Positions 9,768 to 31,899 of a DNA stretch of 64,000 nucleotides are shown here, in pieces. A model generated the notes under the pieces. It did no database searches. It saw only the letters and a program-made list of their open reading frames with translations, and was not told where the DNA came from. A program made the translations under genes and the position numbers. Source of the stretch: Salarchaeum japonicum (GTDB taxonomy: Archaea; Halobacteriota; Halobacteria; Halobacteriales; Halobacteriaceae); NCBI RefSeq assembly GCF_020614395.1, contig NZ_CP085324.1, positions 439,564-503,563 of the forward strand, written 5' to 3'. Position 1 is the first letter of the stretch, and each line of letters starts with the position of its first letter.

Positions 9768-9856
9768 CCGCGAACGCGGAGCGTTCGCGGCCTTTTTAGT
9801 GGAGGTTTTTGCGGTGAGCGGGTCGCCTCCGGCGACCCCGAACCGTAAAAAAGTCC
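9768..9856. repeat. stop-anchored palindromic element, copy A
   Basis: A 10-bp hairpin CCGCGAACGC/GCGTTCGCGG (9768-9777/9781-9790) is followed by CCTTTTTAGTGGAGGTTTTT, an inner stem GGTCGCC...GGCGACC, then CCGTAAAAAAGTCC ending at 9856. The outer parts are also complementary (GGAGG-T5 against A6-GTCC). It ends 1 nt before the TAA (9858-9860) of the TrpD paralogue on the minus strand. It is the same family as the copies at 29.8, 30.7 and 25.9 kb. It may act as a bidirectional terminator. Confidence 0.75.
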
Positions 9857-9857
9857 G

Positions 9858-10913
9858 TTAGAAGGCGCGGAGGTCGTGGAGGGTTTCCGCGGCCTGCCCG
9901 CTCGCGATGGTGTCGCGCGCGGTCTCCAGGCCCTCCCGGAGCGTGTCGGCGTCCCGGCGGGCGTACATGCGGAACGCGGCGTTGAGCGCGATGGCGTCCG
10001 CGAAGTCGTCGTCGCGGTCGCCCGCGAGAACCTCCTCGGTGATGGCGGCGGAGTCGTCGGTCACGTCCTCGACCTGGAGCGTCTCGTTCGAGAAGTCCAT
10101 CCCGTACTCGTCGGTCTCGATGGTGAAGTCGTCCAGGTCGCCGCCGTCCCACTCGGCGACGGTGGTGGAACCGGGCCGGATGTCGTCGTAGCCCTCCATC
10201 CCCTGGAACATGATGACGCGCTCCACCGAACTCTCCTCGCTCTCCTGGAAGGTGTTCACGACTTTCTTCGCGAACGCGAGGTGGTAGAAGCTCCCGAGGT
10301 GGACGCTCGCGTTCGCGGGGTTCGCGAGCGTCTCCACCGTGTTCACGAACGTCCGGACGCCCATCTGGTCGCGACGCCCCTCGATGGCGTCGATGCCGGG
10401 GTTGAAGTTCGGCTGGTAGTAGAACCCGAACCCGGTCGAGTCCGTCATCTCCGCGGACTCCGCCGGCGTGAGGTCGGTCTCGACGCCGAGTTCGTCCAGC
10501 ACGTGCTTGTACGCGGTGCCCTTCTGGGTGGGCACGCGGTCGCCCGAGTGCGCGACGACGGGCGTCCCCGCGGCGGCGGCGACGATGCCCGCGCCCACGC
10601 CTAGGAGGGCGGTGCGGAGCTTCCCGTCGTAGTTCGCGCCGCAGTCCACGGGATCCACGTCGGGTTCCGCGACCGCGACGGACTCCCGACGCATCACGTC
10701 CGTGTACGCGCCGAGTTCCTCCGCGCTGTTGCGCTTCCAGCGGTTCGCCAGCCAGAACGCGCCCAGCGTCGTCGGGTCGGGTTCGTCCGCGAGAATGCGC
10801 TCGAACGCCTCGGTCGCCTGCGCCCGCGTCATGTCCTCCGCGGACTTGTGCCCGGAGCCGACGACCTCGGTCATCAGCCGCTTCAACGGCCACTCGCCGA
10901 AACTCTCGCTCAT
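9858..10913 (-). CDS. anthranilate phosphoribosyltransferase paralogue (TrpD2-like), substrate unknown
   Basis: 351 aa with the overall TrpD / nucleoside phosphorylase class-III fold pattern (N-terminal helical RLMTEVVGSGHKSAEDMTRAQA, central Rossmann-like part, C-terminal SGQAAETLHDLRAF). The PRPP-binding GTGGD loop of true TrpD is replaced by CGANYDGKLRT, and the KHGNYSVSSSSGSSD region by AHSGDRVPTQKG. The genuine trpD is at 34.0 kb in the trp operon. So the activity is probably not anthranilate phosphoribosylation. Monocistronic; divergent from ahbAB. Confidence 0.7.
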   Translation of the reverse strand: MSESFGEWPLKRLMTEVVGSGHKSAEDMTRAQATEAFERILADEPDPTTLGAFWLANRWKRNSAEELGAYTDVMRRESVAVAEPDVDPVDCGANYDGKLRTALLGVGAGIVAAAAGTPVVAHSGDRVPTQKGTAYKHVLDELGVETDLTPAESAEMTDSTGFGFYYQPNFNPGIDAIEGRRDQMGVRTFVNTVETLANPANASVHLGSFYHLAFAKKVVNTFQESEESSVERVIMFQGMEGYDDIRPGSTTVAEWDGGDLDDFTIETDEYGMDFSNETLQVEDVTDDSAAITEEVLAGDRDDDFADAIALNAAFRMYARRDADTLREGLETARDTIASGQAAETLHDLRAF

Positions 10914-29069: not shown

Positions 29070-29756
29070 GTGACCGACTCCGCTCTCACCACGGGGTGCG
29101 GCGCGCTCGACGACCTGCTCGGCGGCGGGTTCGAGCGCGGCACCGTCACCCAACTCTACGGCCCGCCGGGTGCCGGGAAGACGAACGTCGCGCTCTCCGC
29201 CGCGGTCGAGGCCGCCGCCGACGGCGACACCGTCGTCTACGTGGACACGGAAGGCCTCTCCGTCGACCGCTTCCGGGACGTGCTGGAGGCGAACGCGAGC
29301 GACCCGGACGCCGCGTCCTCGCGCATCGTCGTCTCCGAAGCCCACGACTTCGACGAACAGGCGGAGGCGGTGCGGGACGCGAGCGAGTTCGCGCCCGACG
29401 CCAGCCTCATCGTCCTGGACTCCGCGACCGGGTTCTACCGGCTCCGCCGCGCCGACGACGAGGAGGCCGGGGACGCGCTCCGACAGGTCGCGAAACAGGT
29501 GACGCACCTGCTGTCGCTCGCGCGCAAGCACGACCTCGCCGTCGTCCTCACGAACCAGGTGTACACCGACCCCGACTCCGACACCAGTCGCCCGCTCGGC
29601 GGCCACACCCTCCAGCACTGGACGGGAACCGTGGTTCGCCTCGACCGATTCAAGGGCGACCGCCGCCGCGCCACGTTAGAGAAGCACCGCGCGAAACCCG
29701 AGGGCGACCGCGCACAGTTCCGCATCACGAACGACGGCATCGAGAGCGTCACATGA
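29070..29756 (+). CDS. radB: RecA-family recombination paralogue RadB
   Basis: 228 aa, GTG start. Walker A GPPGAGKT (31-38); Walker B SLIVLDSATG; no N-terminal helix-hairpin-helix domain, which separates RadB from RadA. It acts as a mediator that assists RadA loading in homologous recombination. It ends ...RAQFRITNDGIESVT. The last 49 bases are duplicated 146 bp downstream with 45/49 identity, and palindromic element B lies between. Confidence 0.92.
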   Translation: MTDSALTTGCGALDDLLGGGFERGTVTQLYGPPGAGKTNVALSAAVEAAADGDTVVYVDTEGLSVDRFRDVLEANASDPDAASSRIVVSEAHDFDEQAEAVRDASEFAPDASLIVLDSATGFYRLRRADDEEAGDALRQVAKQVTHLLSLARKHDLAVVLTNQVYTDPDSDTSRPLGGHTLQHWTGTVVRLDRFKGDRRRATLEKHRAKPEGDRAQFRITNDGIESVT

Positions 29757-29769
29757 TGTACCGCACGCA

Positions 29770-29855
29770 TCGCGCGACGGGGTCGCGCGAGCTTTTTAGT
29801 GGAGGGTTTTGCGTGGAGCGGGTCGCGGACGCGACCCCGACACGGAAAAACGTCC
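29770..29855. repeat. stop-anchored palindromic element, copy B (between duplicated radB tails)
   Basis: 8-bp stem TCGCGCGA/TCGCGCGA (29770-29777/29783-29790), then GCTTTTTAGTGGAGGGTTTT, an inner stem GGTCGC/GCGACC, then CGGAAAAACGTCC. It lies downstream of radB in the orientation opposite to copies A and C relative to the gene. Its last bases abut the second copy of the radB tail at 29854. Confidence 0.75.
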
Positions 29856-29902
29856 GCGCGCAGTTCCGAATCACGAACGACGGCATCGAGGGGGTCACAT
29901 GA
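29854..29902 (+). repeat. second copy of the radB 3' end
   Basis: 49 nt with 45/49 identity to 29708-29756 (the end of radB including TGA). Three of the four differences are in the last third or are synonymous in the radB frame (GCA/GCG, CGC/CGA). The TGA here overlaps the ATG of the 30-aa gene, the arrangement expected of the ancestral radB end. Confidence 0.85.
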
Positions 29903-29991
29903 ACGCGAACTTCTGGGTGCTCGCGGGCGCGGCGGGCTGTTCCGTCCTGTTCGTGGTGTTCGCGTATCTCTGGCTCCAGCTCAAGGCGTAG
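29899..29991 (+). CDS. 30-aa single-pass membrane micro-protein
   Basis: 30 aa, MNANFWVLAGAAGCSVLF... with one hydrophobic helix (about 5-24) and a short basic end LQLKA. The ATG overlaps the TGA of the duplicated radB tail (ATGA), so it was probably once translationally coupled to radB and is now separated by the 140-bp insertion. No known family. Confidence 0.55.
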   Translation: MNANFWVLAGAAGCSVLFVVFAYLWLQLKA

Positions 29992-30649: not shown

Positions 30650-30739
30650 CCGAGCGCGCCGGCGGCGCGCTCGGCCTTTTTAGTGGAGGTTTTTACGGTG
30701 AGCGGGTCGCGTTCGCGACCCCGACACGGAAAAAAGTCC
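30650..30739. repeat. stop-anchored palindromic element, copy C
   Basis: 11-bp stem CCGAGCGCGCC/GGCGCGCTCGG (30650-30660/30664-30674), then CCTTTTTAGTGGAGGTTTTT, an inner stem GGGTCGC/GCGACCC, then CGGAAAAAAGTCC. The final C is part of the TAG (30739-30741) of the CBS gene on the minus strand. It lies between two convergent genes. Confidence 0.75.
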
Positions 30740-31899
30740 TAGAGCTCGTTCAGTTTGCGGAGGAGCTGTCCCTTGTACTCTTCGTCGGCCTGGATGCCTT
30801 TGAGTTCGAGGACGTTGCGTTCGAGGTGGTCGAGGGCGAGGTTGAGGGCGTTGTCCGCGCCGTAGCCTTCGCCGGTGCCGGCGGCCTGGCCTTTGTTGGT
30901 GCGGAGGCGGATCTGGCAGTAGATGAGGGGCGTGCCGCGGAGGCGTTCTTTGTGCTCGTGGAAGCGCACGTGGGCGTGCTGGACGTGCATGTCGCTGTAC
31001 TTCTGGGTGATGTCCTCGATGCCTTCGCGGACGTCCTCGCGTCCGATGGTGTCGAGGAGGTCGATGTTCGTGATCTGGACGTCCATGCGTTCTTCTTCGG
31101 TGTAGGAGAGCGCGCGGAGGACGTCGGTCTTGGTGAGGATGCCGCCGACGACGCGCTCGTCGTCTTCGGGGGTGACGACGAGGCCGGCGATGTCGTCGTC
31201 GAGCATGGTGCGGACGGCGTCCTCGACGCTGTCACCGGGATGGATGGTGGTGACGGGGCTGGACATCACGTCGTAGACGGGGAGGTCGAGGAGGCGTTCC
31301 ATCTCGCCGCGGCGGTCGCCGCGCGTGGTCTTGTCGACGTCGCGGACGATGAAGTCCACGAGGTCGTGGACGGTGACGATGCCGGTGAGGAAGCCGTCTT
31401 CGTCGAGGACGGGGAGGCGGCTGATGGAGTTCTCGCGGAGGCGGTTGATGACAGTGCCGATGTTGGCGTCCTCGTCGATGGTGACGATGTCCTCGCTGAA
31501 GATCTGGTCGACGGTGAGCGCGTCGAGGTTGTCGAGGACGGCTTCGAGGATGAGGTCTTCGGTGACGACGCCCCAGAGCTGGTCGGCTTCGAAGACGGGC
31601 GCGACTTTCGTGTTCCCCTCAACGAGTTTGCGCGCGACGTCCCGGACGTTCTCGGTGCGGTCGAGTTTGGGGACGCTGTGGCTGGAGGGGTTGGTGAGCG
31701 AGGAGACGCGGGTGTCGTCCTCGATGTGGGAGGAGAGGAGTTGTTTCTGGGTGATAACGCCCTCGAATTCAGCGCCGCCGGCGTGCGTGACGATGATGCC
31801 CTTGGGGTTCTCCTCCTCGAAGAGCGAGCGCACTTTCCCCATTCGTTTTTCGGCGTCGACCGAGACGTAGTCCTGCGTCGCGATGTCGGAGATATCCAT
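30739..31899 (-). CDS. four-CBS protein with C-terminal HPF/S30AE-like domain
   Basis: 386 aa. Four CBS repeats (about 1-60, 62-125, 128-195, 210-270; e.g. SRLPVLDEDGFLTGIVTVHDL, AGLVVTPEDDERVVGGILTK) bind adenine nucleotides in other proteins. The last about 105 residues (MDVQITNIDLLDTIGREDVR ... NLALDHLERNVLELK) follow the beta-alpha-beta pattern of ribosome hibernation-promoting factors. A nucleotide-sensing ribosome-associated role is plausible but unproven. The start is the ATG at 31899. Confidence 0.8.
   Translation of the reverse strand: MDISDIATQDYVSVDAEKRMGKVRSLFEEENPKGIIVTHAGGAEFEGVITQKQLLSSHIEDDTRVSSLTNPSSHSVPKLDRTENVRDVARKLVEGNTKVAPVFEADQLWGVVTEDLILEAVLDNLDALTVDQIFSEDIVTIDEDANIGTVINRLRENSISRLPVLDEDGFLTGIVTVHDLVDFIVRDVDKTTRGDRRGEMERLLDLPVYDVMSSPVTTIHPGDSVEDAVRTMLDDDIAGLVVTPEDDERVVGGILTKTDVLRALSYTEEERMDVQITNIDLLDTIGREDVREGIEDITQKYSDMHVQHAHVRFHEHKERLRGTPLIYCQIRLRTNKGQAAGTGEGYGADNALNLALDHLERNVLELKGIQADEEYKGQLLRKLNEL

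Follow-up and report, generated by a model that had tools for sequence, protein, structure and literature searches.

In Salarchaeum japonicum, the end of radB is followed, after a short spacer, by a second copy of itself. How did this arrangement arise, and what is the spacer? We analysed the window, a stretch of 64,000 nucleotides (assembly GCF_020614395.1, contig NZ_CP085324.1, positions 439,564 to 503,563 of the forward strand), whose first base is position 1 in the coordinates given below (Table 1).

The radB tail is duplicated around a structured spacer

The identity of RadB is backed by an NCBIfam equivalog in a profile search. The last 49 bases of the gene recur downstream at 45/49 identity with a start-to-start distance of 146 bp, and the direct repeat reaches 47/52 when three further bases at its 5' edge, which add the pair GAC/GTC, are included. 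In the radB frame, two of the differences are synonymous (GCA/GCG and CGC/CGA), and one codon carries two base changes that exchange Ser and Gly (AGC/GGG). The downstream tail overlaps the ATG of a 30-aa ORF by ATGA; searches of Pfam and NCBIfam with this ORF gave no match. Local alignment of the two flanks of the spacer scored 37–39.5, compared with at most 10 in 50 shuffles of the same flanks and with a 99th percentile of 14.5 when flanks were swapped between loci. Because the score lies far above both controls, a chance origin of the repeat is excluded. The spacer contains two palindromes, hairpins H1 and H2.

Table 1 Features of the radB locus and related copies in the window.
Feature	Position	Strand	Basis or remark
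radB gene, last stretch being the upstream tail copy	29073..29756	+	NF006861 / TIGR02237 RadB equivalog, 399.5 / 276.5 bits; Rad51 match
Upstream copy of radB 3' end, 49-52 nt including TGA	29705..29756	+	47/52 identical to 29851-29902
Downstream copy of radB 3' end, ancestral ATGA overlap retained	29851..29902	+	Direct repeat; sister-species comparison
30-aa membrane-like ORF	29899..29991	+	Ortholog in sister species G001; recognisable in G007
Structured repeat element E	29757..29856	+	Left end directly 3' of radB TGA; absent from sister species
Hairpin H1, TCGCGCGAC/GGG/GTCGCGCGA	29770..29790	+	Element fold z -3.6
T-tract 1, adjoins H1, terminator-like for radB	29793..29797	+	Sequence; family-conserved
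Trinucleotide GGA, 5' side of covarying stem	29801..29803	+	Covariation among 53 copies
T-tract 2, pairs with A-tract	29807..29810	+	Family alignment
Hairpin H2, GGGTCGCG/GA/CGCGACCC	29820..29837	+	Fold and family alignment
A-tract (T-tract on minus strand), terminator-like for opposite strand	29846..29850	+	Sequence; family alignment
Trinucleotide TCC, 3' side of covarying stem; element end about here, second tail start, CCG common	29853..29855	+	
Second window copy, at stop codon of minus-strand CBS-domain gene	30654..30741	+	81% global identity to radB element
Third window copy, at stop codon of minus-strand gene	9770..9858	+	Repeat search and R1 model

The second tail was most probably gained in the Salarchaeum japonicum lineage

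The locus was compared with that of the sister species (G001, the only congener compared; S. japonicum is G000), whose RadB is 96% identical in amino acids, with 632 of 684 nucleotides in common. The sister's radB end reads ...CACATGAAC..., ...GGCATCGAGAGCGTCACATGAACTCGGACGTC..., a single tail without spacer that has the same ATGA overlap, so that the net difference between the two species at radB is 146 bp. Among 30 haloarchaeal radB loci, a second tail was found in that of S. japonicum alone. Since the sister is single-tailed and only 1/30 loci has the repeat, the 146 bp were most probably gained in the S. japonicum lineage. A preliminary description of this DNA had reported the 49-base repeat and the two synonymous differences, both of which the alignment bears out. 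It had also taken the downstream copy with its ATGA overlap for the ancestral radB end and supposed that element and second end were added to it, and had proposed a look at the radB-downstream region of relatives; exactly such a junction in the sister and the single positive locus among 30 agree with these suppositions. A further claim, that a replacement 3' end was placed upstream, did not hold: measured against the one tail of the sister, the two copies show 3 and 4 differences in 52 positions, and with divergence so similar neither can be named new.

The reverse history, in which tail-element-tail is ancestral at radB and relatives lost it when their two tails recombined, can appeal to the ease with which direct repeats are deleted and to a glutaredoxin arrangement common to two congeners. 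We nevertheless regard it as quite improbable, given the 29 other radB loci without a second tail and the perfect restoration of the ATGA overlap, kept by the sister, that such a loss would need.

The spacer is one copy of a class-wide repeat family

Sequence search recovered eight further, diverged copies of the spacer in the S. japonicum genome, two of them inside the window. The copy after the CBS-domain gene is the closest relative of the radB element in the genome and also the nearest, 884 bp downstream; the unusual arm CCCCGACACGGAAAAA is common to both. A covariance model made from 8 copies (R1) found about 30 copies in S. japonicum and as many in its congener, and a second made from 53 copies (R2) matched in 99 of 116 Halobacteria genomes and 43 of 45 genera. 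For the two congeners the count is 33 and 31; copy numbers are lower bounds, as the model filters lose weak copies. The radB element, itself among the R1 source sequences, scored 94.6 bits with R1, the third highest score in the genome. When 84,980 species were scanned for an exact 20-mer of one subtype, all matches listed came from haloarchaea or euryarchaeal MAGs.

Family elements are about 90–110 bp long. On the window + strand, they consist of a G+C hairpin (H1), CTTTTT, xGT, a trinucleotide, two purines, T-tract 2, GC..GAGCGG–hairpin H2–CCCGA, an A-tract, two purines and the complementary trinucleotide. The trinucleotide pair varies among the 53 copies (CCA/TGG 18, GGA/TCC 13, GCA/TGC 6, GAA/TTC 4 and GTA/TAC 3). 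This stem is paired in 97.8% of cells compared with 83.7% after shuffling, and its covariation score is 0.336, against 0.094 for shuffled and at most 0.117 for slid controls. T-tract 2 and the A-tract pair in 98.6% of cells. Because the trinucleotide stem covaries, we infer that the outer stem is maintained, whether through selection or through copying that preserves palindromes.

A search of Rfam 15 with 11 loci gave no family match up to E=1, and the only hit of a further search, to SAM_alpha (14.1 versus 36 bits), was discarded as a chance match. An interpretation of the GAG/CGA internal loop as a kink-turn was also rejected, as the polarity is wrong for the consensus and several copies lack the loop. 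In the openly licensed literature, we found no description of the repeat family or of recurrent gene-tail duplication.

Copies adjoin stop codons and resemble bidirectional terminators

For 94 of the 155 copies examined, a minus-strand gene has its stop codon at the right (A-tract) end, which lies within -6 to +9 nt of it; ORFs were called by a simple rule of length and third-position G+C, and single gene assignments may be wrong. Read on the strand of the gene, these copies present the stop codon, about 5–7 nt and then T4-6. One copy adjoins the 3' end of a tRNA-Pro gene (L152, G008), and a related tandem array is present in a congener (L159, G002). The family has the features of a bidirectional terminator, with a T-tract soon after the stop on the strand of the gene and T-tracts on both strands. 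According to the available sections of PMC7237163, T-stretches terminate transcription efficiently in Haloferax volcanii (95% for a T5C insert). Because both strands meet a T-tract at a hairpin edge and T-stretches terminate in Haloferax, termination in both directions is the simplest reading, and members of the family are most likely bidirectional transcription terminators. A half element with only H1, a T-tract, the trinucleotide and the second T-tract follows the stop of a maeB-like gene (L350, G050); it may be either a remnant or a simple terminator acting on one strand.

Elements recurrently lie between two copies of a gene's own tail

Two near-identical stretches flank 28 of the 155 copies (score of at least 20, with 99% of swapped-flank controls at 14.5 or below); we attribute the few high control scores to pairings of orthologous or overlapping loci. 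The upstream stretch contains the stop of a + strand gene in 20 of the 28 and of a minus-strand gene in none. The tail that is duplicated belongs to the gene flanking H1 and includes the stop codon; one copy lies on each side of the element, in constant orientation. Tail duplication was also found in 38/74 copies of a second sample, which is not a rate, as this sample was gathered by an exact 20-mer and not by model score and is non-random. Sample rows include orthologs and members of single arrays, so independent events are fewer than rows; the first sample holds about 19 different genes. Genes like hisE, hisF, gyrA, pheT, tyrS, maeB, glutaredoxin and the polymerase D large subunit are among them, as judged by sequence inspection. 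The duplicated tails vary from 25 to more than 140 nt. In most cases the second tail starts about 3–9 nt past the closing trinucleotide, at the hairpin base; at the right junctions, duplicated lengths vary without clear homology. Perfect or near-perfect tandem arrays of tail plus element, with about 2 to 3 units of 139–220 bp, also occur at gene ends (L296, L229, L158, L160 and L198; Natrinema, Natribaculum and others).

The label 'minimal mobile element or recombination scar', which the preliminary description had given to the spacer, is fair as a short name, but the spacer is no unique scar. The main point beyond that account is that it belongs to a class-wide family, with tail duplication at many genes. 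The idea that an element carried in the distal part of its target gene fails here: the family sits in many unrelated genes, and each copy has its own gene's tail, so the tail was copied from the target, not carried. The underlying model of a site-specific integrative element reduced to its ends would explain a duplicated 3' end with the gene intact. With many unrelated targets that have no common att core, and with an element of about 95 bp that offers no room for an integrase gene, it is extremely improbable.

Filled and empty sites reveal fast turnover between sister species

At seven sites, one of the two sister species has tail-element-tail and the other a single tail without a full element: radB, hisE and pheT-like, tyrS-like, maeB-like, dph6-like and thiolase-like genes. 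The empty thiolase-like site retains an H1-like palindrome, and on the filled side a truncated second element follows the second tail. At the maeB-like, hisE and thiolase-like sites, the left junction falls within sequence already present at the empty site (a hairpin, part of a hairpin or a short T-run). In genus g40, one species has a single element at hisE and its congener has tail, element, tail and truncated element. An ancestral tail-element-tail at hisE or maeB was considered; the arrangement is patchy (3/30 and 2/30 loci, respectively), and recurrent gain or repeated loss is therefore likely.

At 20 orthologous sites, the elements are on average 78% identical, compared with 94% for the adjoining gene end, and 13 of the 20 are nearer to another copy in their own genome than to their ortholog. 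Two distant S. japonicum sites (G000:C1:1090370 and 1482258; L082 and L076) have almost the same element, through the TAG stop. In the sister species, the first of these sites is occupied by a different element, and the stop there is TGA. The copied tract thus seems to include the stop codon. Between orthologs of the two species, H1 or H2 loops are in many cases exact inversions of each other (for example, 1554643/1384745, 1873940/285593 and 2093352/494307), a sign that inverted repeats were miscopied. At the glutaredoxin gene of genus g27 (L157 in G103, L167 in G049), the two tails are identical within each species (61/61 and 55/55) and differ between species, and the elements are 90% alike. 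Such comparisons indicate that gene-tail copies are homogenised within genomes by concerted evolution, and tail identity is consequently no clock for the events.

Template switching or an insertion enzyme could have duplicated the radB tail

Any explanation has to cover a repeat family with a covarying stem that sits at gene ends and turns over quickly between sister species, as well as recurrent gains in which gene tails are duplicated. We put at about even the chance that radB acquired a bidirectional terminator through replication template switching at the terminator's hairpin. While the radB end was being copied, the replicating or repairing strand would have switched to another terminator element, copied it up to its hairpin base and then returned to its own template some 50 bases too early, copying the radB end again. 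One such event would add the element and leave both radB and the overlapping downstream gene whole. The copy after the CBS-domain gene is a plausible local donor, because the nearest element is also the closest relative and has the same unusual arm. Breakpoints at the hairpin base, inverted loops, tandem arrays and truncated second elements speak for template switching. Against it stand the H1-side-only orientation, which is more regular than plain template switching predicts, and the right junctions, with their widely variable duplicated lengths and lack of clear homology. Donor searches gave no near-identical copy for the radB element in its genome (best 84% local, 81% global). For the G001 hisE element, the best matches were 77–81% in G000, with no other match in G001, and for the G103 glutaredoxin element the best was 86% elsewhere in its own genome. 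Fast turnover could hide the donors of recent-looking cases.

The main rival to template switching is a non-autonomous mobile element moved by a putative enzyme whose cuts in the two strands would lie 25 to about 150 bp apart at gene 3' ends, the tail being an unusually long, variable target-site duplication. We consider this possible but doubtful. Such an enzyme would account for a well-defined element whose right end is regular, for its single orientation to the gene and for a duplication on both sides, and the empty sites in the sister species and scattered presence within genera fit as well. On the other hand, no such enzyme was identified, neither genome has RVT_1 and no element was found at TnpB loci; partial second elements and tandem arrays fit copying errors better, and a recent burst would have left near-identical element variants, which are not seen. 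To our knowledge, no transposase makes duplications so long and variable. Target-primed retroinsertion was rejected, PF00078 (RVT_1) being absent from G000 and G001 while control genomes were positive.

Alternatively, a circle or foreign fragment with tail and element could have recombined into radB through one crossover within the tail. This would yield tail-element-tail in one step, and tandem arrays if repeated, and it fits the absence of a donor in the same genome. However, it calls for a prior molecule in which the right end of the element was already joined to the tail of the same gene, and the two G001 hisE tails are similar to one another (81/82) and not to a foreign allele; we regard it as unlikely. 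Very improbable, finally, is a PATE, the remnant of an IS605-type transposon. The element is short, palindromic and without transposase, like the haloarchaeal PATEs of Haloquadratum described in the accessible text of PMC3119063. According to the same text, PATEs make no target duplication, in contrast to the gene-tail duplication at radB and many other genes; moreover, R2 found no element at 11 TnpB loci of these genomes (best E 0.053), and the family has a strong stop-codon placement.

Implications and relation to known systems

We tentatively propose, at clearly less than an even chance, that these elements are class-wide mobile terminators. They would insert at the 3' ends of genes through a directional mechanism not described so far, in which the tail of the target gene is duplicated. 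The target would remain intact with a new transcript end, and old copies would continue to serve as terminators, be altered by conversion and be used again. Little is known of the ways in which archaeal genes obtain and swap transcript ends, and here the process can be read from sister genomes, in filled and empty sites, a single orientation and duplicated tails in core genes (radB and hisE-, gyrA-, tyrS-, pheT- and DNA polymerase D large subunit-like genes). The pattern points to an undescribed way for genes to gain new ends. It makes termination, insertion and concerted tail evolution testable in tractable Haloferax species, and it accounts for frequent short gene-end duplications that otherwise resemble scars or assembly errors.

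The T-stretch terminators of Haloferax volcanii are alike in having a T-stretch 3' of genes, sometimes with hairpins, and the available sections of PMC7237163 report no such sequence family. The present elements differ in their conserved two-hairpin module, T-tracts on both strands, covarying stem and class-wide sequence family. Haloquadratum PATEs and SMRs (PMC3119063) are likewise short, transposase-free palindromic repeats of haloarchaea with strain-specific insertions; the accessible text describes neither target duplication nor stop-codon placement for them and derives PATEs from IS605-type ends. By the features tested, the family lies outside the haloarchaeal PATEs, SMRs and MITEs covered there, which differ in their ends, missing duplication or placement.

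Bacterial REP/BIME palindromes (compare PMC3733652) are also dispersed, palindromic, extragenic and often 3' of genes, and differ in sequence and architecture. Roles in termination have been proposed for them, and REPs move with RAYT transposases; we know of no gene-tail duplication by REP/BIME. The element spreads somewhat like a REP-type repeat. MITEs, too, are small non-autonomous repeats with duplications at their insertion sites. Here, in contrast, no terminal inverted repeats of a known transposon were recognised (TnpB loci compared), and the duplications, tied to the gene 3' end, are long and variable, not short and constant. Template switching at inverted repeats, as in quasipalindrome mutagenesis (PMC7202029) and gene amplification (PMC11790251), resembles the present case in that hairpins provoke strand switching, mutations and duplications. 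Compared with the template-switch mutations in the available parts of these reports, the event described here also brings in a functional-looking element of about 95 bp and recurs class-wide at gene ends.
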